Assembly (NCBI GenBank): GCA_017520545.1
Contig: JAFXFM010000013.1
Span: forward strand, 158,667 to 222,666
DNA: 64,000 nucleotides
Source: Alistipes sp.
GTDB taxonomy: Bacteria > Bacteroidota > Bacteroidia > Bacteroidales > Rikenellaceae
Reading direction: 5' to 3'
The notes below the pieces were generated by a model, which did no database searches, was not told where the DNA came from, and saw only the letters and a program-made list of their open reading frames with translations. Positions within the stretch are counted from its first letter, which is position 1; each line of letters starts with the position of its first letter. Positions 11,685 through 34,797 of this stretch are shown piece by piece. Made by a program: the position numbers and the translations under genes.

Positions 11685-11689
11685 GACCA

Positions 11690-12515: not shown

Positions 12516-12548
12516 TAAAACAACGAGCCATTAGCCATTGACTTTTAT

Positions 12549-12902: not shown

Positions 12903-12911
12903 TACAACCGT

Positions 12912-13188: not shown

Positions 13189-13258
13189 TAAATGAGAAAG
13201 CAAGTTGCAGTTAGCTACGGAGTACGCAAAAACTTAACAATTAAAAACCATTATAACT

Positions 13259-13642
13259 ATGTCAAACATTCCTGCTGAATTGAAGTATTCGAACGACCAC
13301 GAGTGGTGTCGAGTAGAGGGCGAGTACGCCTATGTTGGTATTACCGATTTCGCACAGAGCGAGTTGGGCGATATCGTATTTGTTGATATCCAGAGCGAGG
13401 GCGAAACCCTTGCGGCAGGCGATATCTTTGGAACTATCGAGGCCGTAAAGACTGTGTCGGACGCCTTTACTCCCGTGTCGGGTGAGGTTGTAGAGGTGAA
13501 CCCTGCAATCGATGCAGATCCTGCACTTGTCAATACCGACCCTTATGGTGAGGGCTGGATGGTGAAAATCAAGATGTCGGCACCTGAGGAGGTTGATTCG
13601 CTCCTTTCGGCAGACGACTATGCTGCCTTCATAGCGAAATAA
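13259..13642 (+). CDS. gcvH: Glycine cleavage system H protein
   Basis: 127 residues, full length. It carries the lipoyl arm that shuttles aminomethyl groups between the P, T and L proteins. [12 protein letters not shown] opens the protein; the lipoylated lysine is in [24 protein letters not shown] closes the lipoyl domain. No other gcv gene is adjacent. It is followed by palindromic element C, which doubles as its terminator. Confidence 0.96.
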
Positions 13643-13644
13643 GA

Positions 13645-13728
13645 AGTTCTGGTTGGTATATTTTGTGCCAATCGGCAATAACCGAGATGCTCACATAGGC
13701 TTACTATGTTGCGCTCTCGGTTTTTTTT
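13645..13728. repeat. Palindromic intergenic element, copy C, also a terminator for gcvH
   Basis: Hairpin CATAG-GCTTA-CTATG (13694-13708) inside an outer stem ACCGAGA (13681-13687) / TCTCGGT (13715-13721), followed by a run of T to 13728. The left part (GTTCTGGTTGG...) matches copies A, B and D. The stem plus T-run gives a Rho-independent terminator. Confidence 0.75.
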
Positions 13729-13800
13729 ATCATTCTCACTGTAATTTCTATCGACTCTATTACTCCTAACACCCTTTATCTCTTATTTTTCCGCTTTTTC

Positions 13801-13831
13801 TTTGTAATTCGATAAATGTTTACTAACTTTG
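13801..13831 (+). promoter_or_regulatory. Promoter of the secreted phosphoesterase
   Basis: TTTG at 13801-13804, 19-nt spacer, TAACTTTG at 13824-13831: a full match to the Bacteroidetes consensus, 44 nt before the ATG at 13876. Confidence 0.75.
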
Positions 13832-13875
13832 TATAAAATACAAAGAAATTACAAAATCAACTAAATTAATTTAAT

Positions 13876-16713
13876 ATGAGAAAACTTTTTCTTTCATTAA
13901 TTCTCTCCTTGGCGGTATTTGTCGCTTCGGCTGCGGGTATATCGAACTACAAGGAGTTGTTAGCCTTTGCCAAGGCTGTAAATAAAGAGGCGGATATCTC
14001 GATGTGGCAGGACGAAAACGGAGCTGTCTATCTCAATGCCGATATCGATATGAAGAAGGGTAAGAAGTTTCCTACAATCAAGACTTTCAACGGTACGTTC
14101 GATGGTCGTGGCCACAAGTTGTATAATTGGAATGCTCAATCTTCGCTCTTTGGCACTCTCGAAACAAAGGCAGTGGTTAAGAATATCATTATCGATGCAT
14201 CGTGTAAACTCGTGGTTACAACCTCCTACAATGACGAGTATGAATATATTGCATATATCGCCAAGGTAAATAGAGGTCGTATATCAGACTGTGTAAATCA
14301 CGGCTCAGTTGAACATATAGGTGAGGAGTCTAATCGTGAGATTATGGTTGGTGCTATTGTTGGAGCAAATCACAATATCGTGCACAGATGTGTGAATACG
14401 GGTGCTGTTTCATCGCGCATCACACTCTCCAATACAGAGGGTGGCAAAGCGACTCGTATTGGTGGTATTATAGGTACTTGCTATCACAAAAATGTAGAGA
14501 CCGGTTCAACAATCTCTTACTGTGTCAATACCGGAAGCGTATCATTTATGGGCGACTATCCTAATAACAATATCGGTGGTATTGTAGGTGAAGCGTCGCG
14601 CTCGACAGTGAAATACTGCGTAAATCGTGGTAACGTTGTAGCCGTAGGAATGGCATTTGCCGGTAAGACTAAGCCGATTTCGCGTGTAGGCGGTATTACA
14701 GCCTATGCAAATGCTGATATTATCTGTTGTGATAACTTTGGTGTTGTTGCGGTGTCGGGTGCGCACGAGTCTGTAGCGGGTGGTATCTGTGCCCGTCCAA
14801 ACCAAGGCTTCACAATGGTTGATTGCGTAAATCACGGAAAGGTGTCAGCAAACTCTTCGCGTTTTGGTATTGCCGGTGGTGTTATCGGCCGTACAATTCA
14901 GGCTATCCACGTTGCACAGTGTTTCAACTATGGCGAGGTTGTAAATGAAGGTCTTGAGGCTCCGGGTTGGGCTTCGGGCTTCTGTGGTACGCTCTCGACA
15001 CGTAAGGGTTTGAAAACGGGTGCCTATTTCAGAGATTGTGCTAACTATGGTAATGTAACCAACAAGTCAAAGAATGCAAAGGCTGCTTCGGCAGGCTTCA
15101 TCGCTTCGGGTGCGGGTTACCGAGCAAAGAATGTGGTTGTGCCTGTCTATATTAAGAATTGCGCTAACTACGGTAAAATTGACGATGCTCTTGGCAAATA
15201 TGCTGGCGATATATTGGGCTGGAACAAAGATATAAAAGTCAGCGGTAGACGCTATGACGATATGGCGAAGGTGGTGAAGCCGTTGGGTGATGGTTCTACT
15301 ATCTATGGCCGTGTGCAGGATAAGAGAGGTATGCCTATTGCCAATGTTGTGGTGAGCGATGGTGTGCAGAGCGTTATGACCGACGTTAATGGAGAGTACT
15401 ATATGAAGAGTAATATGGCAACTACCCGTTTCGTCTATATTTCGATTCCTGCCGACTACGAGATGCCGTTGCGTGAGCAACGTCCTCAGTTCTTCCGCCG
15501 TGTGCCGCGATATAGCGCAGCTGTGCGTGCCGACTTTGTGCTTGCCGAGCGCGCAAACAAGAGCGACAACTTTGTTTTGGCGATGGTTGGCGACCCTCAG
15601 ACTCGTGGTTTGAAGACAGATAAGGCAGTTGAGCGTTTCCGTGATATTATCGTTGCGGATATCAACAAGTACGCTGAGGCTACCGATAAGGATGTCTATG
15701 CTATTCATCTCGGCGATATTGTTTACAACTATATGACCTCTTATGACCACTATTTGGACGCTTCGGCAAAGGCTACGGTGCCGATGATTAACGTTATCGG
15801 AAACCACGACGTTGATCAGCAAACGCTCTTTGATTCGAAGTTGGGAACTCCATATTTTGAGTCGTACGTAGCGCCACAGAACTACTCGTTCAATATCGGT
15901 AAAATGCACTTTGTGGTCGTAAACGATATCATATACGATCGTCAGAATGTGAAGCAAAAGTATAAGTCGGGTCTTTCGGACGAGACTATTGCTTGGTTGG
16001 AGAGCGACTTGAAGTATGTCCCAACCTCTACTACCGTTGTCGTTTGCAGCCACTCGCCACTTATGAAGCGCCGTGAGCGTTTCTGCGAGCAAAATGTAAA
16101 CTACAAGAGGTATAGCGAGTTGTTGTCGAAGTATGACAACGTATATGCTTGGGCAGGACACACTCATCAAAACTACGAATACGACTACGCTAAGGCTCCT
16201 GCGAAGTATGCTGCGTTGAAGAATGTGAAGTCTATCATCGCAGGTCGTTGTATCGGTCAGATTCGCCTAAATCGCGAGTTGAATACCTGCGGAACTCCTA
16301 ATGGCTATATGGTTGCCGAGGTCAAAGGTGATAAGATGGAGTGGTACTACAAGACAGTGGGCAAGGACCGTAGCTATCAGATGAGAGTATATACCCCTAC
16401 GGTTACAAATAGCGAGTACTTGAAGGTGAACATTTGGAACTACTCGGCTGACACTTGGAGCGCAATCGAGTGGTGGGAGAATGGACAGAAGGTTGCTGAA
16501 ATGGAGCACGCCAAGGGAGAGTTTGACCCTGACTATTTGAAGATTTATGCTCAGCACCAGCAGCAGAAACTCGGGGCTAAGGAGCGTGAGTACTCCAAAC
16601 CGGTTAAGTCCCCTTATCTCTTCCGTGTTAAGCCATCTGCGGGCGTTACATCCGGCGAAATTCGCGTTACCGACCACTTTGGCGTAACCTATACCGAGAA
16701 GGTCGAGTGGTAA
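13876..16713 (+). CDS. Secreted calcineurin-like phosphoesterase with N-terminal GLUG-like repeats
   Basis: 945 residues. Signal peptide (residues 1-20, ending ASAAG). Residues ~60-450 hold repeats of the type C(V/A)N(H/Y/R/T)G-x-V followed by (I)GGI(V/I)G, a right-handed beta-helix resembling GLUG repeats. Around 475-555 is a carboxypeptidase-regulatory-like beta domain (IYGRVQDKRGMPIANVVVSDG). The metallophosphoesterase core (from ~570) has MVGDPQ, HLGDIVY, IGNHDVD, CSHSPL and AGHTHQNYEY; the first motif has Gln where His is usual. A C-terminal beta domain follows. Known MetallophosN/C arrangements lack the long beta-helix. It stands alone between promoter and terminator; its substrate is unknown. 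Confidence 0.88.
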   Translation: MRKLFLSLILSLAVFVASAAGISNYKELLAFAKAVNKEADISMWQDENGAVYLNADIDMKKGKKFPTIKTFNGTFDGRGHKLYNWNAQSSLFGTLETKAVVKNIIIDASCKLVVTTSYNDEYEYIAYIAKVNRGRISDCVNHGSVEHIGEESNREIMVGAIVGANHNIVHRCVNTGAVSSRITLSNTEGGKATRIGGIIGTCYHKNVETGSTISYCVNTGSVSFMGDYPNNNIGGIVGEASRSTVKYCVNRGNVVAVGMAFAGKTKPISRVGGITAYANADIICCDNFGVVAVSGAHESVAGGICARPNQGFTMVDCVNHGKVSANSSRFGIAGGVIGRTIQAIHVAQCFNYGEVVNEGLEAPGWASGFCGTLSTRKGLKTGAYFRDCANYGNVTNKSKNAKAASAGFIASGAGYRAKNVVVPVYIKNCANYGKIDDALGKYAGDILGWNKDIKVSGRRYDDMAKVVKPLGDGSTIYGRVQDKRGMPIANVVVSDGVQSVMTDVNGEYYMKSNMATTRFVYISIPADYEMPLREQRPQFFRRVPRYSAAVRADFVLAERANKSDNFVLAMVGDPQTRGLKTDKAVERFRDIIVADINKYAEATDKDVYAIHLGDIVYNYMTSYDHYLDASAKATVPMINVIGNHDVDQQTLFDSKLGTPYFESYVAPQNYSFNIGKMHFVVVNDIIYDRQNVKQKYKSGLSDETIAWLESDLKYVPTSTTVVVCSHSPLMKRRERFCEQNVNYKRYSELLSKYDNVYAWAGHTHQNYEYDYAKAPAKYAALKNVKSIIAGRCIGQIRLNRELNTCGTPNGYMVAEVKGDKMEWYYKTVGKDRSYQMRVYTPTVTNSEYLKVNIWNYSADTWSAIEWWENGQKVAEMEHAKGEFDPDYLKIYAQHQQQKLGAKEREYSKPVKSPYLFRVKPSAGVTSGEIRVTDHFGVTYTEKVEW

Positions 16714-16732
16714 ATCACTAAAACATATTTTT

Positions 16733-16765
16733 GATACCCGACATCATTGTCGGGTATCTTTTTTT
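16733..16765 (+). terminator. Rho-independent terminator
   Basis: Perfect 11-bp stem (16733-16743 with 16748-16758), TCAT loop, seven T. Confidence 0.9.
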
Positions 16766-16848
16766 GCTCAAAACTCGACTTTTTGGCGTGCGATTTGCTT
16801 GTTGCATAGGTGAAGTTATTGTAGTATTAACGCTAAAAAACAACACTT

Positions 16849-17046
16849 ATGAAACAGGCAACCTTCTGTATTCTTTCGCTGCTTGGCGGAGCTATTCTTG
16901 GCTCGGCCGTGGCATTGGCGCTGACGCCAAAGACGGGTAAGGAGATGCGCGGTATGGTGCGCGATTTTTTGAACGATGAGATTAACAAGTGGAGCTCTTC
17001 GTGTGGCAAGGACGGCGTTGCGTCGTGCGGCTGCGAGGAGAAATAG
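16849..17046 (+). CDS. YtxH-like small protein
   Basis: 65 residues. A glycine-rich hydrophobic helix (LSLLGGAILGSAVALAL) followed by TPKTGKEMRGMVRDFL, the pattern of YtxH-domain proteins (Gas-vesicle/stress-related, function unclear). The C-terminus is Cys-rich (SSSCGKDGVASCGCEEK). The next gene starts 12 bp downstream. Confidence 0.75.
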   Translation: MKQATFCILSLLGGAILGSAVALALTPKTGKEMRGMVRDFLNDEINKWSSSCGKDGVASCGCEEK

Positions 17047-17057
17047 TGTGGTGGCTT

Positions 17058-17360
17058 ATGCGCGAAAGACACTCCTACTTTGCCGCTCTCATCATCGTTG
17101 CTTTGGCGGCACCGGCGGCTGCACTTCTGCTTGTAGTGGCGCTCGTTGTTACGTTGGCGGAGCTTATGGGGTCCATAATTTACCCTTGTCTTATTCTTGG
17201 AGTGTTTTTTGCTCTCCTTGCGACTATAATATATAAGGTGTCGCTTCGAGAGGCAATGCGCGAAATAGACGAGCGCTTTGCCGTAATCTACGAAGTTACC
17301 CGCCTCCTCCGTCAAGGCGTGGAGTGGGGTGTCCGCCTGCTCTTCCGAGAGAATAGGTAA
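17058..17360 (+). CDS. Small membrane protein, holin-superfamily-III-like
   Basis: 100 residues from the ATG at 17058, chosen because it follows the YtxH stop; an upstream start would overlap that gene. Two transmembrane helices (FAALIIVALAAPAAALLLVV and IIYPCLILGVFFALLATII), then a charged amphipathic tail. The pairing of a YtxH gene with this kind of two-helix protein is common in Bacteroidetes. Function unknown; the holin likeness is by shape only. Confidence 0.65.
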   Translation: MRERHSYFAALIIVALAAPAAALLLVVALVVTLAELMGSIIYPCLILGVFFALLATIIYKVSLREAMREIDERFAVIYEVTRLLRQGVEWGVRLLFRENR

Positions 17361-17457
17361 CGAGAAGGCGGAGGTTGAATGGCTAATTCGTAGTCTATTG
17401 ATGTCAGTACCGTAAACTATCTACATCTATCACATCTCTCCATTACCCTTAAAAAGG

Positions 17458-17480
17458 CGGAGCCCAAGGCTCCGTTTTTT
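17458..17480 (+). terminator. Rho-independent terminator
   Basis: CGGAGCC (17458-17464), CAA loop, GGCTCCG (17468-17474), six T. The rest of the 17361-17678 gap holds the TetR promoter and nothing else recognisable. Confidence 0.88.
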
Positions 17481-17626
17481 GTTGATAGCCCCAAATTCAC
17501 CTATTTCGATACAATAACAGCCCGAAAAATACGTTAGTAATCGTGTGGCAAACGGCCGATTTTGTGAATCTCGCACGATATGTGAGAAATAGGATACTAT
17601 GTGCGCATAAAAACTTTGAAAACTTT

Positions 17627-17657
17627 TTTGGTGTTTTGAGTTTTCTTGCTATCTTTG
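17627..17657 (+). promoter_or_regulatory. Promoter of the TetR/RND efflux operon
   Basis: TTTG at 17627-17630, 19-nt spacer, TATCTTTG at 17650-17657, 21 nt before the tetR-type ATG at 17679. It also rules out the longer TTG start at 17646, which would lie upstream of the transcript start. Confidence 0.8.
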
Positions 17658-17678
17658 CACCGTAGTAAAGTGTATTTT

Positions 17679-18302
17679 ATGTCGAAACGGGAAAAAGTTA
17701 TCAAACGAGCGGCTGAGATGATTGCCGAGTTGGGCGTGAAGTCGTTGCGCGTAGATGATTTGGCGAGCGATTTGGGAATCTCGAAGCGAACTCTCTACGA
17801 GATGTTTGGCGATAAAGAGGAGTTGCTCTATCACAGCATCAAAGAGATTTTGCAGAGTGAGGCAAGCGCAATCAAGGCTAAGATGACGAGAGCATACTCG
17901 GGTATACCTTCTCTTTTTGAGACATTCGATGCGATGATGTCGGGCAGCGCTGTTCGCAAGCGTATTACGGAGAACTTGGCGAAGTTCTACCCCGAGTTGT
18001 ATGAGCGCGTGATGACCGAGAATCGCGAATATGGCTTGGCTACGTTGCGCGAGAAGTTGAACCACCTTGTGGAGGAGGGCTTGATATCTGAGATGGTGAA
18101 TATCGACCTCTCGATAACGATGTTCTACTATACCTCGATGGGCTTGATGCGCCGCCACGGACGATTGGTGCTGCCAGATGGAGTGTCCGAGTTGGAGGCG
18201 TTCCGCTATACGATAGTAAACTTCTTCCGCGGTATCGCAACCGTGAAGGGAGTGGAGCAGATTGATGCCTACTTGGCAGCGAAAACAAATGAGAACAAAT
18301 AA
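17679..18302 (+). CDS. TetR family transcriptional regulator
   Basis: 207 residues from ATG 17679. The N-terminal helix-turn-helix reads VIKRAAEMIAELGVKSLRVD, DLASDLGISKRTLYEMFGDKEELL, the standard TetR motif. The C-terminal half is a divergent ligand-binding domain. It is first in a tight operon with an outer-membrane channel, adaptor and RND pump, so it probably represses that efflux system and responds to one of its substrates. Confidence 0.9.
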   Translation: MSKREKVIKRAAEMIAELGVKSLRVDDLASDLGISKRTLYEMFGDKEELLYHSIKEILQSEASAIKAKMTRAYSGIPSLFETFDAMMSGSAVRKRITENLAKFYPELYERVMTENREYGLATLREKLNHLVEEGLISEMVNIDLSITMFYYTSMGLMRRHGRLVLPDGVSELEAFRYTIVNFFRGIATVKGVEQIDAYLAAKTNENK

Positions 18303-24406: not shown

Positions 24407-25306
24407 ATGACGAAGAAGAGTATATTCCCATATTACACCGAGGTTTTGCGCAGTGTAGACGGCTTGGAGGTCTCGGACGTTGGTGGTGCAGCGATGATGC
24501 ACTTCGAGGATGTGGATATCGACCAGATGCCGGAGTTGAAATATCCTTGTCGTATCGACGCACTTGTGATTGTTGTTTGTCTGCGTGGCGAGGTGTCGTT
24601 CTCGTCGCAGTTGAATAACTACACATTGAGCGAGAACCAGTTCTTTATCTCGTCGGCATCGGTAATTCAGTTCTACTCGTTAGCCGATAGTGAGGCCTAT
24701 TTTATGGCGTTTACATCGGAGTTTTTGGCGAATATGAATATCGATGTGCGCGTTGTTGGGCAGTTGATTTCTCGTTTGGGTACAGGTGGCTATATTGTCG
24801 ATCTCAACAACGACGAGTTACAAGGTGTATCACGTTTCTTGGCTACATTGCACGACCATCATCGCACTGATCTAATGTCGGAGTATAGAATGGCGTCATT
24901 ATGCCACGTCTATTGCGCTATGATATACCGCATTGTCGATGCTCTTGTGGGCAGAGAGGTTGCGGTGGTGTCGATGGGTGTTAAAGAGCGTAGTTCGGAG
25001 TATTTCGAGAAGTTGATGTCGCTCCTCTCGGAGCACTATCGCGAGGAACGAGGAGTGGAGTTCTACGCCGAGAAGATGCACATCTCGTCGAAGCACCTTT
25101 CGCGTGTAATTCGTAGTTATACGGGCAGGTCGGTGCATCAGTGGATAGATGAGTTTGTGGCGCTCGAAATCAAAAACTTGCTGAAATACTCCAATATGAG
25201 TATTCAGCAGATATCCTACTTTTTGAACTTCCCGAATCCTTCATTTATGGGACAATACTTTAAACGTATTACCGGAATGACACCGGGCGAATACAAGAAA
25301 AGTTGA
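24407..25306 (+). CDS. AraC family transcriptional regulator
   Basis: 299 residues. An N-terminal cupin-like sensor half is followed by the two AraC helix-turn-helix motifs: FYAEKMHISSKHLSRVIRSY with GRSVHQWIDEFVALEIKNLL, and SIQQISYFLNFPNPSFMGQY, FKRITGMTPGEYKKS. It closes the RND operon, giving the locus two regulators (TetR first, AraC last). Ends at a strong terminator. Confidence 0.93.
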   Translation: MTKKSIFPYYTEVLRSVDGLEVSDVGGAAMMHFEDVDIDQMPELKYPCRIDALVIVVCLRGEVSFSSQLNNYTLSENQFFISSASVIQFYSLADSEAYFMAFTSEFLANMNIDVRVVGQLISRLGTGGYIVDLNNDELQGVSRFLATLHDHHRTDLMSEYRMASLCHVYCAMIYRIVDALVGREVAVVSMGVKERSSEYFEKLMSLLSEHYREERGVEFYAEKMHISSKHLSRVIRSYTGRSVHQWIDEFVALEIKNLLKYSNMSIQQISYFLNFPNPSFMGQYFKRITGMTPGEYKKS

Positions 25307-25315
25307 TAGACAAGT

Positions 25316-25342
25316 AAGACCGAGGCAACTCGGTCTTTCTTT
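25316..25342 (+). terminator. Rho-independent terminator
   Basis: Perfect 9-bp stem AAGACCGAG / CTCGGTCTT with GCAA loop, then TCTTTTT. Ends the RND/AraC operon. Confidence 0.9.
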
Positions 25343-25435
25343 TTAGAGAGTAGTGATATAATTGTCAATTGTCGTTTATAGAGTTCCATACCCACTTTTT
25401 ATTATAGAAAACCGCCGATTCGTTGAAAAAATTTT

Positions 25436-25463
25436 TTTGTAAAAAACAGACTATTTATATTTG
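25436..25463 (+). promoter_or_regulatory. Promoter of the variable-lipoprotein locus
   Basis: TTTG at 25436-25439, 16-nt spacer, TATATTTG at 25456-25463, 58 nt upstream of the small peptide gene. Confidence 0.65.
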
Positions 25464-25521
25464 CGACCGATTTATTAGGTAATGTGTAGATACTATAATA
25501 CTATAACTAATTACAATAATT

Positions 25522-25662
25522 ATGATTTTTAACGAACAGAACAATGAGTACGTTGCACCATCTGTAATGGTGGTCGATGTAGTTTGCGAGGCTGGTTTCA
25601 AGGCTTCGACAGGTGAGATGACATTTGTAGATGGTGTCGATGATGGTTGGTATGGTCTTTAA
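25522..25662 (+). CDS. Small 46-residue peptide upstream of the variable lipoprotein
   Basis: ATG at 25522, TAA at 25660-25662. It begins MIFNEQNNEYVAPSVMVVDV, then VCEAGFKAST, GEMTFVDG and ends DDGWYGL. There is no signal peptide. The layout (N-terminal polar part with a Pro, V-rich middle, C-E-A-G-F, acidic Gly/Trp tail) recalls short unclassified peptides encoded before surface-lipoprotein genes in Bacteroidales, which look a little like RiPP leaders; this is an impression, not a match. It sits between the promoter and the lipoprotein gene, 28 bp upstream of it. Confidence 0.65.
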   Translation: MIFNEQNNEYVAPSVMVVDVVCEAGFKASTGEMTFVDGVDDGWYGL

Positions 25663-25690
25663 TTAACAAATGCTAAAAGGAGGAAAATTT

Positions 25691-27895
25691 ATGAAAAAGT
25701 TATTTGTTTCGATTTTGGCTCTCGCGGCATTTGCTGCTTGTCAGAGCGATTTTAACGATGTGAATTTGGACGCACCACAGCAGGGCGGCAACGCGAATGT
25801 TGGTGGCTCGTATACAATTTATGCCGAGGTTGGTGTTGGCGAGGACGACACAAAGGCGACCTATGGCGATGGTTTGAAGGCTACTTGGGAGGAGAACGAC
25901 CAGATTGCACTCTTGCAGGAGCACGCAAACTATGGCGCAACTTTCAGCGTAGTAAACAAGTTGAACATTAAGAACGGTTGGGGAACAAGCAAGGCGTTTT
26001 TCAATGGCGAAATTTCGGTAGATGCTACTGCACCTCGTGTATATCACATTGCTTACCCTGCATCGGCAGTGTCGTTCGCGACTACAAGTGAGTTGTCAGT
26101 GGATAACCTTACATATGAGGATAGCGCCCAGCTTCCAGGATGGGACAACTGGGCAGCAAGTGGCTCAGGAAGATATACATATACATCCACTTTGAACGTT
26201 ACTGTTCCTGCAACACAGAAAGGTAAGTGGGAGCCATATATGTATGCTTCGACTTCGGAGGGCGTAGATGCAAATGCTATTGGTGCAAAGACTTTGAATA
26301 CTTTGACTGGTGCTATCGCAATCCGCGCATTCGAGGCTGATGGTGTAACACCAAAGCAGTTGAGCCGCGTTACTATCACTTCGAGCGATGTTGCTATCGC
26401 AGGAGCCTTCTCAGGTACTTCAGTAAGCGTTGGCTCGACAGATTCTAAAACAGGTGCAGGAACTGGCGATCAGAGTAATGTCCTTAATAGCGTAGATGAG
26501 TTGAAGGCAACTGCATACAATAATCTTGTTAATGTGCTGAAAGATTTGGCCCCAGCCTCTACTTCGGTAGTTGAGTCTATGTCGCTTTCGTTCGCTGGTA
26601 ATACTAAGAGTGTTACCGCAAACAACCTCGAAGCTATTGCAAGCGACGATAAGGGTTACTATACCTATTATATCAATGTTGCCCCTGCAACTTTTGCAGC
26701 AGGCAGTTTGACTATCGAGGCTACCGATGTTGATGGCTCTACTTTGACACGCGTTGTAAATAAGGAGGTAACCATCGCAGCAAGCCACCGTGCAGGTTTC
26801 AACCTCACTTGGGAGGATGCAACTTTGAATGGCGCAACCATCGAGACTTGGTACAACAACTGGAATACAGGCTCGCAGTTCCAGTTGGAGGGTAGCACAA
26901 TCTATGTTGATAATGTAAGCATTGATGGAAATATCTCGGCTGATCAGGTTTTGGCTATCGGTGTTCGTATCAATGGCGAGTTCCACGAGGCTTCGCAGCA
27001 GAGCGGTAAGTTGGCTATTTCGCCAATCGTAATCTCGGGTTTGTCGAGCGGTGTTTACAAGGTGCAGCCTGTTGCAAAGGTATCGCTCAATGGCGAGGAG
27101 AAGTGGTTGGAGTGTGCCGAGGTTGAGAAGATAGTTACTTCGATTCCGCAGGTTATCGACTACTCGGTTCGTACATCGTATTCGAGCAATGGTAACGTTG
27201 CCAAGACTAACGATATCAATGGAGATATTTTGAGGGTTAAGGCTAATATCTCGGACTCGTACGTGGCCAACAATCTCGTTAATGGCAAGACCTATACTAT
27301 CTGCTACGGCTCGAACACAGCTACGCAGACCCTCGGCTCAGAGAAGGATATTACTCTTGCGTACGGTGCTTGGGGACAATATGTATGTTATGTTAAAATC
27401 GCCCTTGCAAACGGATATGTCTGTGAATCAACACAATACACCACTCACGTAACGGGTATACCGTATTCGATAACATTCGATTCGGCAAATCCGGCAAATT
27501 GGGCTTGCAGTAATCAGGCTTTTCAGGATAAAGCCTTTATTTTGAAGACAAAGGAGGCTTACGCAATCTCTCCGAAGTTCCATATGCCAGAGAATTTGAC
27601 GTTGGCTGTATCAATACCTCTTTATGGCTATACTCCAAATAACTGGACTAAAAACTTTAATGAGACTTTTTATGTGTCGGCATCATCGGGTGGAGATGTT
27701 AAGACATCAGTGTTCTACTCGGAGTATATTAAAAACAATAGTTATGGTGATAGTAAGTTCTCGACCAAAAACGGAAGCGTAACTCTAACTCCTGCAAATT
27801 CGCATATTTGCTTGCACGCAACAGGAGATAATAATTCTAATGTAGCAGGAAAGAACTCTGGCTTGTTCTTGAAGTCGATTACTGTAAATTACTAA
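25691..27895 (+). CDS. Fimbrillin-like lipoprotein with exchangeable C-terminal segment
   Basis: 734 residues from the ATG at 25691, chosen because a strong AAAGGAGG lies 8 bases upstream (25676-25683) and the signal peptide starts there. Lipobox AFAAC, Cys17, predicts a surface lipoprotein. Residues ~45-390 resemble fimbrillin-type beta domains (TKATYGDGLKATWEENDQIA, YHIAYPASAV, LTGAIAIR). From residue 563 (QYVCYVKI) to the end is a separable ~172-residue module containing YTTHVTGIPY. Two alternative versions of this module lie downstream on the opposite strand, headed by the same DNA sequence. Fimbrial or adhesin role is inferred. Confidence 0.82.
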   Translation: MKKLFVSILALAAFAACQSDFNDVNLDAPQQGGNANVGGSYTIYAEVGVGEDDTKATYGDGLKATWEENDQIALLQEHANYGATFSVVNKLNIKNGWGTSKAFFNGEISVDATAPRVYHIAYPASAVSFATTSELSVDNLTYEDSAQLPGWDNWAASGSGRYTYTSTLNVTVPATQKGKWEPYMYASTSEGVDANAIGAKTLNTLTGAIAIRAFEADGVTPKQLSRVTITSSDVAIAGAFSGTSVSVGSTDSKTGAGTGDQSNVLNSVDELKATAYNNLVNVLKDLAPASTSVVESMSLSFAGNTKSVTANNLEAIASDDKGYYTYYINVAPATFAAGSLTIEATDVDGSTLTRVVNKEVTIAASHRAGFNLTWEDATLNGATIETWYNNWNTGSQFQLEGSTIYVDNVSIDGNISADQVLAIGVRINGEFHEASQQSGKLAISPIVISGLSSGVYKVQPVAKVSLNGEEKWLECAEVEKIVTSIPQVIDYSVRTSYSSNGNVAKTNDINGDILRVKANISDSYVANNLVNGKTYTICYGSNTATQTLGSEKDITLAYGAWGQYVCYVKIALANGYVCESTQYTTHVTGIPYSITFDSANPANWACSNQAFQDKAFILKTKEAYAISPKFHMPENLTLAVSIPLYGYTPNNWTKNFNETFYVSASSGGDVKTSVFYSEYIKNNSYGDSKFSTKNGSVTLTPANSHICLHATGDNNSNVAGKNSGLFLKSITVNY
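27377..27399 (+). other. Putative inversion site, expressed copy
   Basis: 23 bp beginning CAATATGTATGTTATG and ending TTAAAAT, starting exactly at codon 563 of the lipoprotein. An identical sequence lies inverted at 28488-28510; a 16-bp exact core with two later mismatches lies at 29315-29336. Confidence 0.8.
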
Positions 27896-27914
27896 AAGTT
27901 AATACACTACGACA

Positions 27915-27951
27915 AAGACCGCCCTGCGTAATTGCAGGGCGGTCTTCTTTG
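27915..27951. terminator. Bidirectional terminator between lipoprotein and cassette 1
   Basis: 13-bp perfect stem (27915-27927 with 27934-27946), GTAATT loop, CTTT on the right and AAA-rich on the left. It lies after the stop of the expressed gene and beyond the stop of the oppositely oriented cassette. Confidence 0.8.
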
Positions 27952-27973
27952 ATATTTAGGTTTATGAGTGAGT

Positions 27974-28510
27974 TTACAACTGATACTGTACTGTTACAGA
28001 CTTCATAATAACACCCATTGCACCTCCACCAACACTCCACGAAGAGCCCGAACCGGTTGAGTAGATGCTAACGCGAGGTGCGCTATTCGAAAGTGCTACG
28101 GTAGGTGTCCAGTTGGTATAACTTGCACCGCTATTAGGCAGGTAGTTACTACCCTTCAACTGAATTGATGTGCCCGATGCGCTACCCGATGTAGAAGATG
28201 TTGCCGAAGCATATACTGTTGGCTTGTAACTACCGTAAATCGAGCCTCCGTAAGCGTACATAGGGATAGTTACAACCACATTGCAAGCAGCAGGAACACC
28301 ATACTTCATCGATACGATATAGGCATTCTTACCCTCCTTCATACAGAGATATTCGTTTGTGGTGGTGTTGCTTGCGCTCCAACCAGAAATAGACGAAGTA
28401 CCCGACAATGATACCGTACCATATGGAATACCTGTTACGCTTGTTGTATATTTATCCGAAACGACTTCATATCCATTTCCGAGCAAAATTTTAACATAAC
28501 ATACATATTG
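27974..28510 (-). pseudogene. Silent C-terminal cassette 1 of the variable lipoprotein
   Basis: On the minus strand the frame opens within the inversion site: CAA TAT GTA ... gives QYVCYVKI exactly as in the expressed gene, then LLGNGYEVVSDKYTTSVTGIPYG, and runs 178 codons to TAA at 27974. It has no plausible start codon, ribosome site or signal peptide; upstream in frame is a stop. The protein is homologous in layout to residues 563-734 of the expressed lipoprotein but differs through most of its length. If the 27377-28510 segment inverted, it would be fused in frame. Confidence 0.8.
28488..28510 (-). other. Putative inversion site at the head of cassette 1
   Basis: Exact reverse complement of 27377-27399 over 23 bp, in the same codon phase relative to the cassette frame. 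Flanking bases differ on both sides. Confidence 0.8.
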
Positions 28511-28723
28511 CTTGCTACCAAAGAGTTAAAGTGTGCGACAAATTGAACATTATACGAGTGAAATAGAATAAATATGCGGTATTGGAGGCGATGGGAATGG
28601 ATGGGACAAGATGGAACAAGATAGGAATAGATAGTTCCCTATACCATCCTATGATTTCCTATCGAGTGCCGCAGGCACAAATCCTATAAAGTCCTATAAA
28701 TTCATATCCCAATGATATAATAT

Positions 28724-28768
28724 AAAGTAATAGCATAATTCTCGAAACGAGAATTATGCTATTACTTT
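28724..28768. terminator. Long perfect hairpin downstream of cassette 2
   Basis: 21-bp perfect inverted repeat (28724-28744 with 28748-28768) around AAA, A/T-rich with a CTCG/CGAG apex. It lies just past the stop of cassette 2 on the minus strand and would travel with that cassette, so it probably ends its transcript after inversion. The remaining 28511-28723 sequence holds no gene that I can see. Confidence 0.65.
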
Positions 28769-28785
28769 GTGTATGAGATGCGCTC

Positions 28786-29336
28786 CTATCGGTACTGTAT
28801 AAGTGCCTTGTGTAAATAATAGTAACTCTGTGTTATGCCACCGAAGATACTTGCCTTTGGTTTGGCCGATATACACATATAAGGGTTCGTTGAACTCAAT
28901 ACAACATTTGTGTCATTGCCCTTGTGTGTGGTAAGTCCACCTGTTGCTCCTGTGTTCAATGTGTTAAAGCCGGAATATTCGTTTGTCTGTACCTTTGTGG
29001 ATGGACTCGAAGTTGCACCTACATAGGCGGTACAACTACCTCCCAACTGATAGTATTTGTGTGTAAGTGTTGTGGTCGTGTTGATGTTTGCCGGCGTGTG
29101 GAATTTGGGCGATACCACATATCCTGACTTCGTTCCGCTATGTCCCAGGCACAACTGTTTCGATTGGGTAGTCCAATCCCCATTTAATGTCCAACCATCA
29201 GCCTGGATATTTCCCGTATTTACGCCGCCCGCATAGAAATCGTATTCGTAAGGTATGCCTGTAATATGGGTTGTATATTTATTCGACTCGATGGTGTAGC
29301 CATTTTTGAGCAAAATCTTTACATAACATACATATT
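28786..29336 (-). pseudogene. Silent C-terminal cassette 2 of the variable lipoprotein
   Basis: On the minus strand TAT GTA TGT TAT GTA AAG ATT gives YVCYVKI, then LLKNGYTIESNKYTTHITGIPYEYDF, open for 182 codons to TAG at 28786. An in-frame TAA stands just before the site, and there is no start codon, ribosome site or signal peptide. SPKFHTPANI matches SPKFHMPENL of the expressed module, while other parts diverge. It would be expressed only after fusion to the lipoprotein 5' part. Confidence 0.78.
29315..29336 (-). other. Putative inversion site at the head of cassette 2 (imperfect)
   Basis: Shares AATATGTATGTTATGT exactly with the other two sites, then differs at two of the last six positions (AAAGAT versus TAAAAT). 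Confidence 0.7.
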
Positions 29337-29410
29337 ACGTAACGCCAAACTCGCTATAAATTGGCCATTTAGAGTAAATATTTTGCTGTCGGAATAAATA
29401 TGAAGGAGGA

Positions 29411-29419
29411 GGGGGGGGG
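29411..29419 (+). repeat. G9 homopolymer
   Basis: Nine G preceded by GAGGA, in the non-coding stretch between cassette 2 and nusB (29337-29610). Confidence 0.6.
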
Positions 29420-29459
29420 TAAGGTTAGGTGGGGCGCACCTTCGGTGCTTACTGGGGTA

Positions 29460-29484
29460 ATTTTGCATTTTGCATTTTGCATTT
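29460..29484 (+). repeat. Heptamer array TTTTGCA
   Basis: About 3.5 copies of ATTTTGC. Same heptamer as in the tmk upstream array and, inverted, in birA. Confidence 0.75.
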
Positions 29485-29565
29485 CTCTCCGTTTCCAACT
29501 CCAAGCGAAAACCGAAAAAACTAAAAGTTTTCCGTTTTCCGCTTTCCGTTTTACAATTTTTTTGT

Positions 29566-29573
29566 TATCTTTG
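29566..29573 (+). promoter_or_regulatory. -7 element of the nusB promoter
   Basis: TATCTTTG, 37 nt before the nusB ATG. No clear TTTG at the expected -33 distance. Confidence 0.5.
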
Positions 29574-29610
29574 TGCGATTATTGTATAATTGAATTGTCT
29601 CTTTGAAGTT

Positions 29611-30549
29611 ATGTTGAGCAGAAGAGTTCTACGAACAAAGGTCGTGAAGGCGGTTTATGCCCATATGCAGTGTGAGGGCGTAACCCCCGTTGTGAGCGAG
29701 AAAAATCTCGTGCATTCGATAGATAGGGCCTACGACCTATATTTTCATCTACTCGCACTCGTTCCCGAGATTGCCGAGTATGCTGCCGAACGTATCCGCA
29801 TCGGCGAAAATAAGAAGTTGCCTACATACGACGACCTGCACCCAAACCGCAAATTTGTGGAGAACAAGGTTATCGTGCGCCTCAACGAGGATGAAGGCTT
29901 GCAGGCGGAGTTAAAGAGCCGAAAGTTGTCGTGGAAGAGCAACCGCGACCTTATCGTCGCTCTCTACAACGCTTTGGTGCGTCAGCCGTTCTATATGAAG
30001 TATATGGCGTCGGACGAGCGCTCATTCCGCGAGGATGCACAGCTTGTATCGGATATATATATGACGATGCTCGAGGAGTTTGAACCACTCGATGTCGCTT
30101 TGGAGGAGCAGTCTATATTGTGGAACGACGACTTGGGCTACTTGCTGACTATGGTATCGCGTACGGTGTTGTCTATGCGCGAGAGCCACGATGCAATAAA
30201 GCTTATGGAGCAGTATAAGAGCGAGGAGGACCTCGACTATGCGAAGTCATTGCTGCGCAATACGATTGCGGGCTACGAGCGTATATCGCTTATGCTCGAC
30301 AATGCTATGAATAATTGGGATATCGAGCGTGTAGCGTTGATGGATAAAATTATCCTCGTAACTGCTATTACCGAGGCGGAGAACTTCCCGTCGATACCTG
30401 TGCGCGTAACGATGAACGAGTATATCGACATTGCAAAGTGCTATTCCACCGAGTCGAGTGGTGGCTTTATCAACGGTATCTTGGATCGCATCATCGCTCG
30501 CCTTACCGACGAGGGTAAAATCGTGAAGTCGGGCAAAGGTTTGTTGTAA
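29611..30549 (+). CDS. nusB: Transcription antitermination factor NusB
   Basis: 312 residues from ATG 29611 (MLSRRVLRTKVVKAVYAH), the usual NusB opening; the in-frame ATT/TTG codons upstream are less likely. Bacteroidetes NusB is about twice the length of the E. coli protein, as here. The RNA-binding/NusE-contact domain is at the C-terminus (IEFARVALMDKI-type helix, PVRVTMNEYIDIAKCYS, SGGFINGILDRI). It binds boxA of rRNA transcripts. yajC follows after 47 bp, a common Bacteroidetes pairing. Confidence 0.93.
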   Translation: MLSRRVLRTKVVKAVYAHMQCEGVTPVVSEKNLVHSIDRAYDLYFHLLALVPEIAEYAAERIRIGENKKLPTYDDLHPNRKFVENKVIVRLNEDEGLQAELKSRKLSWKSNRDLIVALYNALVRQPFYMKYMASDERSFREDAQLVSDIYMTMLEEFEPLDVALEEQSILWNDDLGYLLTMVSRTVLSMRESHDAIKLMEQYKSEEDLDYAKSLLRNTIAGYERISLMLDNAMNNWDIERVALMDKIILVTAITEAENFPSIPVRVTMNEYIDIAKCYSTESSGGFINGILDRIIARLTDEGKIVKSGKGLL

Positions 30550-30596
30550 CGAACAAGACAGAAAATAGATAGTAACAATTTAAAACTTTAAAAACT

Positions 30597-30998
30597 ATGA
30601 TTAAATTTTTTCAGGCACCCGTAGCAGGTGTGACAGAGGCAGCCGTTCAGGTTGTAGAGCAGACAGCGCCACAAGGTGGTGAGGTTGTAACAGAGGTTGC
30701 CGACGGTGCAAATCTCTTTGGCGGAAACTTGTCGTTCTGGATTATGATTATCGCGATGATTGCCATTATGTACTTCTTTATGTGGCGTCCCGAGAAGAAG
30801 CGTCGCAAGGAGATGGAGGATTTTCGCAATGGTCTTAAAGCTGGTGATAAGGTTATCACCGCAGGTGGTATCTACGCCGTAGTGAAGAAGGTTGAGGAGA
30901 CTTCGCTCTTGATAGAGGTCGATAGCAACGTAACCCTTCGTATAGACAAGGGTATGGTTATGGCTGCTCCGGTTGCTGCAACCCCTGAGAAGAAATAG
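30597..30998 (+). CDS. yajC: Preprotein translocase subunit YajC
   Basis: 133 residues. One transmembrane helix (LSFWIMIIAMIAIMYFFMW) followed at once by RPEKKRRKEM, and the small cytoplasmic domain with GLKAGDKVITAGGIYAVVKK and EVDSNVTLRIDKGMV: all YajC hallmarks. It is an accessory of SecDF-YajC in the inner membrane. The N-terminal ~45 residues before the helix are longer than in E. coli. Confidence 0.95.
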   Translation: MIKFFQAPVAGVTEAAVQVVEQTAPQGGEVVTEVADGANLFGGNLSFWIMIIAMIAIMYFFMWRPEKKRRKEMEDFRNGLKAGDKVITAGGIYAVVKKVEETSLLIEVDSNVTLRIDKGMVMAAPVAATPEKK

Positions 30999-31037
30999 TA
31001 ATGATAGATCAATTCCTAATTCTAACTTAATATAACT

Positions 31038-33152
31038 ATGAAAAAACTTATTCTTTCGGTTGTTGCTCTTGCGTTGGCAACATCGGCATTCGCAGAGAAG
31101 AAGAGCGAGATGATGTCGTGGGAAGAGGCTACTGTCAAGGCTAACGAGGTTTTGGCTACGCTTTCGCTCGACGAGAAGATTGAGATGACTCACGGACACA
31201 ACAAGTTCTTCCTCCCGGGTGCACCGGCAAAGGGTTTGCCACACGTATTTATGGTAGATGCATCGGCAGGTGTGCGTATCAACCACACTTTGCCAGATCC
31301 AAACGAGGTGCGTCATCCTGCAAAGACTACGCAGTTCCCTGCAACTATTGCTCTCGCTTCGACCTTCAACCCTGAGTTGGCAAAGTTGTATGGCGAGGCT
31401 GTTGGCTACGAGACTCGTATGGCAGGTGCGGGCGTGTTGCTCGGTCCTGGTATGAACATCTATCGTTCGTCGCAGTGCGGTCGTAACTTCGAGTATATGG
31501 GCGAGGATCCATATCTGGCAGCTCGTATGGTTGAGAACTACGTTATCGGTATGCAGGGTACAGGTACAATGGCTTGCTTGAAGCACTTTGTCTGCAACAA
31601 TACCGAGTTGTATCGTAAGCTTTCGAACTCTATCGTTGATGAGCGTGCAATTATGGAGATCTACACCCCTGCATTTAAGGCGGGTATCGACGCAGGTGCC
31701 GGCTCTGTAATGACTTCGTACAACCTCGTAAATGGCGAGTGGGCAGGTCAGAGCAAGTACGTTATTACCGATCTTCTCCGTGGAACTCTCGGTTTCAAGG
31801 GTTTGGTAATGACCGACTGGCGTTCGGTATATGATTGGAAGAAAATTGTTCTTTCGGGTCAGAACGTAGAGATGCCGGGTACCCCTAACGAGTACTACCA
31901 TATCAATCAGGTTCGCGACCTTTTGAAGCAGGGCGAATTGACAGAGAAGAATATCGACGATATGATTCGTCCAATGGTTGCAACCCTTATCCGTTTCGGT
32001 TTGTACGAGCGTTTCAGGAATGGTCAGCCAAACGAAGACGCTCTCGAAGAGAAGTTCCCTCACCACGAGGCGGTGTCGTATCAGACAGCTGCCGAGGGTT
32101 CGGTGTTGTTGAAGAACGATGGTATTCTCCCATTGAAGGAGGGTCAGAGCGTATTGCTTGTAGGTCGTTGGGCGAAGGTTGCACCGCAGGGTGGCGGCTC
32201 ATCGCGAGTTAAGGGATTCAATCAGGTAACTTCGGAGCAGGCGCTCCTCAGCGCATTGCGTTCGAAGGTTAAGGCAGTTGAGAAGCCAAACTTTATTCAG
32301 TTGCAGCAGGCTGACGTTGTAGTTGTAGCCACAGGTACTTACGACACCGAGGGTCAGGAGCGTCCGTTCCAGATGATGGAGGAGGACGAGGCTTTGGTTC
32401 GTATGGCTTGCGCAGCAAACAAGAAGGTTATCGTGTTGATTCTTTCGGGTTCGGGTATCGATATGAGCGCTTGGAACGATAAGGTGTCGGCTATCATCTA
32501 CGGTTGGTATCCTGGTCAGAGCGGTATGCAGGCTATTGCCGATATTATGGTAGGTAAGGTAAATCCGTCGGGTAAGTTGCCTGCAACTATCGAGAAGTCG
32601 TTCAAGGATTCGCCGGCATACGGTATGGTACCACAGGGTTTGAGCGTAACTTATAAGAGCCGCAATACCAACGAGTTGTGGACTGCTCCAAAGCACTACG
32701 ATGTACACTATCACGAGTCGGTTTTGGTAGGTTATCGTTGGTACGAGACAAAGGGCATTGAGCCTCTCTATCCATTCGGTCACGGCTTGTCGTACACTAC
32801 ATTCGAGTTGAGCAAGGCGAAAGCTGCCAAGACAATTTCGGCAGAGAAGCCATTGAAGGTTACTGTTCGTTTGGCTAACACCGGTAAGATGGCAGGTGCT
32901 GAGGTCGTTCAGTTGTATGTTCAGGAGAATAACCCAACCGTATTGCGTCCAAAGAAGGAGTTGAAGGCGTTTAAGAAGGTACACCTCGAAGCAGGAGATA
33001 AGACTACCGTTACTTTCGAGTTGAACCACAAGGATTTGGCGTTCTGGAACGACAAAACTCACGCTTGGGAGGTAAATAAGGGTACATACACTCTCCACAT
33101 CGGAAATTCGTCGGCGAATATCTCGCAGACATTGACCGTGGAGGCAGAGTAA
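31038..33152 (+). CDS. Glycoside hydrolase family 3 beta-glucosidase-like enzyme
   Basis: 704 residues. Signal peptide ending SAFA. The N-terminal barrel has GPGMNIYRSSQCGRNFEYMG, EDPYLAARM, CLKHFVCNNTE and the nucleophile segment GLVMTDWRS (the Asp). The second alpha/beta domain has VLLVGRWAKVAPQGGGSS; the C-terminal fibronectin-III-like domain starts near residue 610. GH3 enzymes remove terminal beta-linked glucose, xylose or GlcNAc; the sequence does not tell which. It stands alone between yajC and a terminator, likely periplasmic. Confidence 0.92.
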   Translation: MKKLILSVVALALATSAFAEKKSEMMSWEEATVKANEVLATLSLDEKIEMTHGHNKFFLPGAPAKGLPHVFMVDASAGVRINHTLPDPNEVRHPAKTTQFPATIALASTFNPELAKLYGEAVGYETRMAGAGVLLGPGMNIYRSSQCGRNFEYMGEDPYLAARMVENYVIGMQGTGTMACLKHFVCNNTELYRKLSNSIVDERAIMEIYTPAFKAGIDAGAGSVMTSYNLVNGEWAGQSKYVITDLLRGTLGFKGLVMTDWRSVYDWKKIVLSGQNVEMPGTPNEYYHINQVRDLLKQGELTEKNIDDMIRPMVATLIRFGLYERFRNGQPNEDALEEKFPHHEAVSYQTAAEGSVLLKNDGILPLKEGQSVLLVGRWAKVAPQGGGSSRVKGFNQVTSEQALLSALRSKVKAVEKPNFIQLQQADVVVVATGTYDTEGQERPFQMMEEDEALVRMACAANKKVIVLILSGSGIDMSAWNDKVSAIIYGWYPGQSGMQAIADIMVGKVNPSGKLPATIEKSFKDSPAYGMVPQGLSVTYKSRNTNELWTAPKHYDVHYHESVLVGYRWYETKGIEPLYPFGHGLSYTTFELSKAKAAKTISAEKPLKVTVRLANTGKMAGAEVVQLYVQENNPTVLRPKKELKAFKKVHLEAGDKTTVTFELNHKDLAFWNDKTHAWEVNKGTYTLHIGNSSANISQTLTVEAE

Positions 33153-33173
33153 AATTGCAAAAAAATCAAGAGA

Positions 33174-33208
33174 TGGGGAGTTGAGGCATCTCGACTCCCC
33201 ACCTTTTT
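33174..33208 (+). terminator. Rho-independent terminator
   Basis: 12-position stem (33174-33185 with 33190-33201, one G-T), GCAT loop, CC then five T. Confidence 0.85.
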
Positions 33209-33249
33209 CTTGATTACTGATCGTTTAAGAAATTTTCCGTTTCCCGTTT

Positions 33250-34422
33250 ATGAAGAAGGTTGTCTCCTTTTCGTTGATGTTGATGGTCGGACTCGTACTG
33301 TCGCAGATGTTGCCGTCGCAGATGGGCGCGGAGCATTATGCCTACTTTCGCGAGGTTATAACCATAATGCTCGGTGTATGTTTGGCGTTTATTATGATAA
33401 ATGTCGGACGAGAGTTCGAAATTGACAAGACGAATGTTAGAGGCTATGCCAAGGATTACTTGGTGGCGATGTTTGCTGCTGCAATGCCGTGGTTGCTCAT
33501 AGCCTTGTACTACATCTTCGTTCTGCTTCCATCCGAAATGTGGGGCGAGGGCGAAGTGTGGAAGGAGTCGCTTCTTTTGAGCCGTTATGCCGCACCAACA
33601 TCGGCAGGTATATTGTTTGCAATGCTTGCGGCGCTCAATCTTCAAAAGAGTTGGATATATCAAAAAATACAGGTCTTGGCTATCTTCGACGACCTCGACA
33701 CCATCTTGCTGATGATTCCGTTGCAGGTTGCAATGATAGGTATGAAGTGGCAGATGGGCGTTGTATTGTTTGTGGTGTGCCTGCTTTTGTGGATAGGGTG
33801 GAGGTATATGTCGCGCTTCGACGTGCCGCAGAGCTGGAAGGCTATACTCTCCTATGCGCTATTGACCTATGGGGTGATATTGGCAATATATATGGCTACA
33901 AAGCACCTTTTTGGCGAGGAGGGTGCAATTCATATCGAGGTGCTTCTGCCGGCGTTTGTTGTCGGTATGGTGATTAAGAATCGCCACGTCGGAGGCAAAG
34001 AGGAGGAGAGGGTTGCTACGGGTATTTCTCTACTCTTTATGCTGTTGGTAGGTATGAGTATGCCGCTTATAAATGCCGGAGATGTCGCGAGCGATAATAT
34101 GAGTGTTATTGGCTCAATCCCGATGATTTCGTGGGGCGAGTTGGCGTTACACGTCTTGGCTGTGTCGCTCTTGTCTAATTTGGGCAAATTGGTGCCGATG
34201 CTCTTCTATCGAGACCACTCTTTAACCGAGCGCTTGGCGTTGTCGGTTGGTATGTTTACCCGTGGCGAGGTTGGCGCAGGCGTTATATTTATAGCTATCG
34301 GATATAATATAGGAGGCCCAATACTTTTGATTTCGGTGCTGACGTTGGTGCTTAATCTTGTTTTGACGATTGGCTTTGTCTATATCGTCAAGCGTTTGGC
34401 GTTGAAAGCACAAAAGATGTAG
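33250..34422 (+). CDS. Cation:proton antiporter-like membrane protein
   Basis: 390 residues with about eleven hydrophobic helices (for example FSLMLMVGLVLSQML, MFAAAMPWLLIALYYIFVLL, GISLLFMLLVGMSMPL). LAIFDDLDTILLMIP and FTRGEVGAGVIFIAIG resemble the ion-binding and motif segments of Na+/H+ exchangers of the CPA superfamily. It would exchange cations for protons across the inner membrane. Shorter than many CPA2 members and with no C-terminal regulatory domain. Starts 97 bp after the GH3 gene. Confidence 0.78.
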   Translation: MKKVVSFSLMLMVGLVLSQMLPSQMGAEHYAYFREVITIMLGVCLAFIMINVGREFEIDKTNVRGYAKDYLVAMFAAAMPWLLIALYYIFVLLPSEMWGEGEVWKESLLLSRYAAPTSAGILFAMLAALNLQKSWIYQKIQVLAIFDDLDTILLMIPLQVAMIGMKWQMGVVLFVVCLLLWIGWRYMSRFDVPQSWKAILSYALLTYGVILAIYMATKHLFGEEGAIHIEVLLPAFVVGMVIKNRHVGGKEEERVATGISLLFMLLVGMSMPLINAGDVASDNMSVIGSIPMISWGELALHVLAVSLLSNLGKLVPMLFYRDHSLTERLALSVGMFTRGEVGAGVIFIAIGYNIGGPILLISVLTLVLNLVLTIGFVYIVKRLALKAQKM

Positions 34423-34434
34423 AAAACTATATAG

Positions 34435-34797
34435 ATGCGTAAGTTAATTGCCATAATACTCTTTTTGCTCGGAGTTTTTGCTTACGAGCAGATAGATGTT
34501 GTGCCGGAGCAGATTGAGGTACCGAATGAGGTGTCGGACCTGCATCGTGAGCAATATACCTGCTGTCGTCGCTACAATGTTGATGCCGAGCGGACTACTT
34601 CGGTGGTCGTGCCTACGGCTCAAACAACTGTTGTAACCACTCCCCGCACGCACTCGTATCGTGCGCCACATATCGCTGCGTCGGGGCATTTCTATACCAC
34701 ATCAAACTATGTTGTGGCGCATTTCATTCACCGTTTGGGCTCTTTATCTCGTGCGGTGGATTTCTATCTCTATACGCTGTGTCAATTACGACTATGA
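34435..34797 (+). CDS. Small exported hypothetical protein
   Basis: 120 residues, not recognised. The N-terminal hydrophobic helix (LIAIILFLLGVFAY) is a signal peptide or anchor; the rest is Thr/Val/His-rich with CC in QYTCCRRYN. It begins 12 bp after the antiporter stop, so probably shares its transcript. A 9-bp inverted repeat (ATGATTGCA at 34794-34802 with 34821-34829) overlaps the stop codon. Confidence 0.6.
   Translation: MRKLIAIILFLLGVFAYEQIDVVPEQIEVPNEVSDLHREQYTCCRRYNVDAERTTSVVVPTAQTTVVTTPRTHSYRAPHIAASGHFYTTSNYVVAHFIHRLGSLSRAVDFYLYTLCQLRL

Follow-up and report, generated by a model that had tools for sequence, protein, structure and literature searches.

Shufflons produce alternative protein ends by DNA inversion at short repeats, and that of plasmid R64 (Rci/sfx) relies on a dedicated invertase that adjoins them. 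Several related systems have been described. In Bacteroides fragilis, alternatives of a SusC/SusD shufflon are likewise chosen by inversion at short repeats, under Tsr0667 (PMC11852207). In mollicutes, Xer-family recombinases vary surface lipoproteins by inverting DNA, as in the mba locus of Ureaplasma (XerC) and the Vpma locus of Mycoplasma agalactiae (PMC3599477, PMC11868660). In Acinetobacter plasmids, DNA inverts reversibly between pXerC/D sites that face opposite ways and share a spacer (PMC9947245, PMC13141974). Finally, chromosomal dif, the site of XerCD, has the same architecture and is hijacked by phages belonging to the integrative mobile elements exploiting Xer (IMEX; PMC3025954, PMC5357621). 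Here we analyse a 64,000-nucleotide stretch of an Alistipes sp. genome (contig JAFXFM010000013.1, positions 158,667 to 222,666; hereafter the window), in which a lipoprotein-like gene is followed by two inverted, start-less cassettes encoding versions of its last module. We consider it likely that this locus is a C-terminal shufflon of a fimbrillin-like adhesin lipoprotein, and that XerC and XerD, the recombinases that resolve chromosome dimers, act in trans on its dif-like sites.

The R64 and B. fragilis shufflons have a dedicated invertase, whereas the contig of the present locus is free of matches to the tyrosine recombinase family PF00589 and its sites resemble dif. As in mollicute lipoprotein switching, we propose a Xer-type inversion of surface lipoprotein DNA; in Ureaplasma, however, XerC alone bound the inverted repeats while CodV bound the potential dif (PMC3599477), and here the sites are themselves dif-like. 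The closest match in site design is Acinetobacter pdif, where a XerC arm and a TTATGTTAA-type XerD arm flank a 6-bp spacer and inversion takes place between opposed sites with matched spacers (PMC9947245, PMC13141974), but those sites are plasmid-borne and, as far as described there, lie between genes or modules, not within a frame whose protein end they would alter. Chromosomal dif/XerCD and IMEX phages resolve or integrate DNA, unlike the protein-end switching proposed here, and the terms 'phase variation' and 'antigenic' do not occur in a dif/XerCD review (PMC5357621). Shufflons, mollicute Xer-type inversion of surface lipoprotein DNA and pdif inversions are known separately; no report of a protein-end shufflon on dif-like sites, or of any Alistipes shufflon, was found in the open literature searched.

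The product of the expressed gene is a lipoprotein-like protein of 734 residues, whose frame is already open from ATG 25670. Its last module (module 1) opens at CAATATGTATGTTATGTTAAAAT (27377-27399, + strand), position 27377 being in codon phase 0 relative to ATG 25691. An exact inverted copy of this sequence lies at 28488-28510 and an imperfect one, 87% identical over 23 nt, at 29315-29336; each heads a frame in module phase, the first running from 28510 to 27977 (178 codons) and the second from 29334 to 28789 (182 codons), and inspection found no ATG at the head of either. A first-pass annotation, which had read the locus as a C-terminal shufflon, gave these repeat coordinates and start-less frames, and both were reproduced here, the frames from the open reading frames of the window. 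Modules 2 and 3 share 36% and 38% identity with module 1. Between pairs of sites, identity is 87-100% within the 23 nt of the site, 20-37% across the 30 nt that precede it and 47-53% across the 30 nt that follow. An expressed constant part accompanied by inverted, in-phase, start-less cassettes at common short repeats is the layout of a gene-altering inversion.

The 23-bp repeat is real, but is better seen as part of a dif-like site of 28-29 bp (Table 1), a likeness that the first-pass annotation did not mention and that suggests an enzyme. A 21-base core, searched with up to 3 mismatches in the 1.93-Mb assembly, occurs in four places, namely the three module sites and an apparent chromosomal dif on contig C23 (L004), and its reversed control in none. 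The L004 sequence, GGTGTGCAATA TGTATA TTATGTTAAATT, is the presumed chromosomal dif and agrees by eye at 25 of 28 positions with that of E. coli, GGTGCGCATAA TGTATA TTATGTTAAAT (PMC3025954). When it was used as a probe, with at most 3 mismatches, on 180 genomes of an Alistipes-like genus (labelled G000 and so on, G000 being the window's own), 112 gave a match, mostly single, against about 16 for the reversed control; these matches are presumed to be mainly chromosomal dif. A matrix of the arms only, spacer excluded, was built from 28 sites, 3 poor ones having been dropped from the 31 fetched (30 probe loci and L004); the training set includes the dif of G000 itself and excludes the module sites. 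Across the 64 kb, the three best scores are those of the module sites (22.1, 22.0 and 15.3), and the next is 7.8. In 100 random windows that preserve the base-pair steps, a score of 22 never occurs and one of 15.3 is attained in four, so that the first two sites stand alone and the third is notable for its placement. The window sites have two dif-type arms around a 6-bp spacer. In cassette loci, 15 of 16 module starts score at least 11.4. Coding constraint does not explain the DNA motif, since 14 of 16 related modules elsewhere score -8.6 or less, several of them still keeping YxCYxK.

Comparison across the genus supports the shufflon reading. Module 1 as a query matched 26 of the 180 genomes, the window's own included; large regions were taken from 20 of the 25 others. 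A profile search of these regions together with the window detected 32 module copies. Silent cassettes occur in seven genomes (two each in G000 and G091, and one each in G119, G121, G078, G083 and G116), and all nine are inverted relative to the expressed gene. Five other genomes (G097, G104, G124, G140 and G151), viewed as loci of about 2.4-3.5 kb, have one module each and no inverted cassette in view, with an additional weak second module match on the same strand in the short locus of G151. An expressed gene with inverted start-less cassettes is thus present in at least seven of 180 genomes, a lower bound given the single module used as query, the draft genomes and the five short loci. Outside the genus, the module matched one of 393 order-wide genomes at E 1e-6, namely the window's own, and none of 24 genomes from other families. 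Viral contigs held no relative of the lipoprotein, and one stretch, viewed around the match, fitted the site pattern. A scan of genome contigs for AATATGNNTGTTATGTTAARAT returned 11 stretches, six of which are known cassette loci; L148 and L149 (the latter from 3000 on), checked for inverted repeats, showed no such site pair, and L141, L143 and L144 were viewed around the match.

The spacers follow a rule. In six of the seven cassette loci, the spacer is identical across all sites of the locus, an outcome reached in 2 of 200,000 permutations. The spacers are TGTATG in the window, TGATTG in G121 and G091, TGACTG in G078 and G083, and TGGCTG in G116, that is, four distinct spacers over six loci, none equal to the TGTATA of the G000 dif. 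Because the locus spacers differ from that of dif, cassettes would trade inside the locus and not with dif. Only G119 departs from the rule: its silent site is intact but its expressed site is degenerate, and the locus may be locked. We then looked beyond the module: exact ATA-N6-TTATGTTAA sites were surveyed in the 180 genomes, and pairs were read by eye among the matches listed. Inverted same-spacer pairs at most 10 kb apart were found, among those matches, in the module loci of G000, G078, G083, G091, G116 and G121 and in a different gene of G002 (C4:488926 and 490028, spacer TTACCT), while the reversed controls gave scattered single matches. Partners with a common spacer are therefore found in six of the seven loci, G119 excepted, and in the G002 pair. 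The G002 gene (L182:2813-6231, G002:C4:488813-492231) is also lipoprotein-like but unrelated to the first; its frame of 875 codons matches Fn3 and BACON weakly, below cut-off. It too has an inverted start-less cassette: the gene end and the adjoining inverted frame both begin at ATATTACCTTTATGTTAAATC, within a longer repeat (88 nt, 93%). In the 180-genome search, the module 1 query did not match the G002 gene ends. Two unrelated protein ends carrying the same kind of site point to the site, and hence its enzyme, as the common factor.

Other dif-like sites were seen in the same material. The expressed genes of G084 and G029 have a module-border dif-like site without a same-spacer partner among the matches listed. 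An inverted dif-like pair 113 bp apart, with unlike spacers, lies at G004:C3:29547-29677. Two draft genomes have two dif-type sites each, as a dif-integrated element might leave: G116 (C28:63581 and C36:20599) and G005 (C3:2477 and C32:39898).

Comparison with related loci, which the first-pass annotation had proposed as a check, both matched the sites in six of seven loci and revealed an inverted arrangement. G119 shares the window locus (AcrB 90%, AraC 66%, constant parts 62%). Window 27913-28382, 470 nt that take in the common hairpin and the greater part of silent cassette 2, aligns at 75% to L056 15252-14783 of G119 in inverted orientation, between collinear flanks, and the aligned module is the expressed one in G119. 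At the protein level, silent cassette 2 is 74% identical to this expressed module, whereas the two expressed modules are 40% identical. The silent module of G119 and the expressed module of G091 are again in opposite states, with 61% protein identity. The ratio of nonsynonymous to synonymous substitution rates (dN/dS) is about 0.11-0.18 in three pairs of modules, including one in which both are silent. These values are rough because dS is near saturation; two more pairs are saturated. The silent frames thus look selected.

The constant part ends in a XerC-type arm (TGGGGACAATA), and the 6-bp spacer TGTATG with a XerD-type arm (TTATGTTAAAAT) opens each module. XerC and XerD would bind and recombine the module sites, pairing the expressed site with either inverted silent site and exchanging strands in the spacer. 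Such a crossover would flip about 1.12 or 1.95 kb, the XerC-type arm remaining with the constant part and the XerD-type arm moving with the module. A new module would thereby be joined in frame to the constant part, and the previous one stored silent. By eye, the codon preceding the module is TAA in five of the nine silent cassettes, inside the XerC-type arm; a crossover in the spacer would leave this silent TAA behind and keep CAA in the expressed copy. FtsK control of switching is possible. On balance, the housekeeping XerC/XerD of the genus may well double as an antigen-shuffling invertase, dif-like sites having arisen inside the coding sequences of two or more unrelated adhesin lipoproteins, with cassettes traded within a locus and not with dif, and with FtsK as a potential tie between switching and cell division.

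The search for a recombinase bears directly on this proposal. PF00589 matches number 8 in G000, 4 in G119, 3 in G121, 3 in G078 (one below cut-off), 5 in G091, 2 in G083 and 4 in G116, and the contigs that carry the seven cassette loci have none. A dedicated invertase beside the locus was not found, PF00589 and PF00239 matches both being zero on these contigs. By best NCBIfam match, XerD-like and XerC-like proteins are both present in G083, G119, G091, G078 and G121. Serine recombinases (PF00239) were rejected as the common enzyme, with matches in three of the seven genomes and none in G000, G078, G083 or G116 (E 0.001). Among the tyrosine and serine recombinases searched for, a search that did not include the IS110/Piv type, Xer is the best common candidate enzyme on these draft genomes. 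It is nevertheless conceivable, though we judge it unlikely, that a true shufflon is flipped by a dedicated tyrosine invertase encoded elsewhere, that its sites are dif-like by chance and that XerC/XerD are uninvolved. There is precedent in Tsr0667, a dedicated invertase that serves a Bacteroides shufflon (PMC11852207), and the eight PF00589 matches of G000 and the incomplete assemblies leave room for such an enzyme; on the other side, the sites fit dif in both arms, PF00589 is absent from all seven locus contigs, and in G083 the XerC-like and XerD-like proteins, its two PF00589 matches, are the only tyrosine recombinases detected. The shufflon is probably run by XerCD.

Several observations weigh against a XerCD-run shufflon. 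Regarding the enzyme, G000 lacks a XerD-like match and G116 a XerC-like match, leaving both Xer proteins in five of seven genomes; the equivalog cut-off is passed by two of six XerD-like proteins (G091 and G078) and by none of six XerC-like proteins; and G083 is 86% complete, so that a dedicated invertase may be missing from its assembly. At cer, moreover, XerCD is held to disfavour inverted sites, according to a review (PMC5357621). Regarding the reference sites, they are taken as dif for their resemblance to that of E. coli, and guanine-cytosine (GC) skew gives an ambiguous picture: in G002 it changes sign about 150 kb from the site and not at it, and on the G177 contig of 3.38 Mb a local maximum of cumulative skew falls 0.13-0.19 Mb away from the site (3.178 Mb), the sampled curve dipping twice, near 0.35 Mb and near 1.5 Mb, with the second dip alone opposite the site. 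Regarding the loci, the G119 expressed site is degenerate (-9.7), and two cassette-free loci, in G084 (C16:36817, L063) and G029 (C24:166122, L075), carry dif-like sites (22.5 and 23.8), perhaps having lost cassettes. Finally, inversion within one strain is inferred from a comparison between species, and the paired window and G119 modules have a dS of 2.13 versus 0.88 for the constant parts. They were therefore not simply co-inherited, and on this sequence evidence are either older than the locus split or exchanged.

The degenerate G119 site and the TAA before five of the nine silent cassettes could also fit a locus without programmed inversion, in which old duplicates have heads kept alike by coding constraint or gene conversion. 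We hold this to be very improbable, for all nine cassettes are inverted, spacers match within loci, one alignment between species is flipped, the frames are open with the low dN/dS given above, and modules elsewhere retain the residues but not the DNA motif. The pattern that the first-pass annotation had named as contrary to its reading, eroded pseudogenes of fixed order and orientation, was not what we found: the silent frames appear to be under selection, and a 470-nt stretch is inverted in G119. Least credible of all is that the cassettes are mobile dif modules (Acinetobacter pdif-like or IMEX-like) inserting at dif-like sites with incidental variation of the protein end, since, despite a layout and spacer rule resembling those of pdif sites (PMC9947245) and similar modules in different loci and genomes, the frame is maintained through the site and each cassette of the window carries a single site, at its head and not at both ends, so that it could not be excised as a unit.

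What the proposed XerCD-run shufflon would exchange can be outlined from predictions. The lipoprotein has a lipobox-like start by eye. Its structural model has a mean predicted local distance difference test (pLDDT) of 71.9, and the top structure rows are SGBP-B (6e57), followed by 3ufi and 4k4k, at query template modelling (TM) scores of 0.11-0.21. Pfam and NCBIfam gave no family above cut-off for the three window proteins. In a profile search against solved structures, the module had two weak matches (E 0.68 and 0.8) and the full protein had none. The modules are predicted to be jelly rolls of adhesin or carbohydrate-binding type; the lipoprotein would sit on the cell surface and its modules would bind different ligands. 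As the swapped modules are predicted ligand-binding jelly rolls, the switch could alter gut binding, or recognition by phages or antibodies. If XerCD does run the switch, housekeeping XerC/XerD are drivers of surface variation in a gut bacterium, and a 28-bp site with a spare module would be enough for such variation to arise anywhere in a genome. Shufflons usually come to light through a neighbouring invertase, and searches keyed to one would miss systems run by XerCD. The spacer rule, alike within a locus and unlike dif, amounts to a directly testable code for permitted partners.

Table 1. Features of the lipoprotein locus in the window (window positions)
Feature	Position	Strand	Basis and remarks
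AraC-type regulator, 5' of the lipoprotein gene	24407..25306	+	PF12833 and PF00165 matches; belongs to the conserved setting
Expressed lipoprotein-like gene	25691..27895	+	Constant part 25691-27376 plus module 1; open reading frame list, fold matches
Expressed dif-like site	27371..27399	+	XerC-type arm 27371-27381, spacer TGTATG 27382-27387, XerD-type arm 27388-27399; matrix score 22.0
Module 1, expressed C-terminal module, predicted jelly roll	27377..27895	+	Open reading frame list, fold prediction
Tail-to-tail hairpin common to modules 1 and 2	27915..27946	.	Terminator-like listing on + only
Silent cassette (module 2), 178 codons, without start	27974..28510	-	74% identical to the G119 expressed module
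Inverted dif-like site of module 2	28488..28516	-	Spacer TGTATG at 28500-28505; matrix score 22.1
Hairpin 3' of module 3	28724..28768	-	Perfect 21-bp arms
Silent cassette (module 3), 182 codons, without start, TAA immediately before	28786..29334	-	Open reading frame list
Inverted dif-like site of module 3	29315..29343	-	Spacer TGTATG 29327-29332, weaker XerD-type arm; score 15.3

Hairpins had been assigned to every unit of the locus; module 3 does have its own, while modules 1 and 2 use a single one between their tails. A short open reading frame of about 46 codons was seen by eye between the AraC-type regulator and the lipoprotein gene (window ~25522-25662). In G091, a larger block is inverted relative to the window: L059 (G091:C31) ~7822-18105 corresponds to window 25300-34753, from the region upstream of the lipoprotein gene through nusB, yajC, bglX-like and antiporter genes, with breakpoints at window 25300-25388 and 34407-34753; a third module remains next to the AraC gene. 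Further along the window, at 42386-47227, five tandem open reading frames on the + strand (starting at 42386, 43358, 44330, 45291 and 46256) are alike by eye.

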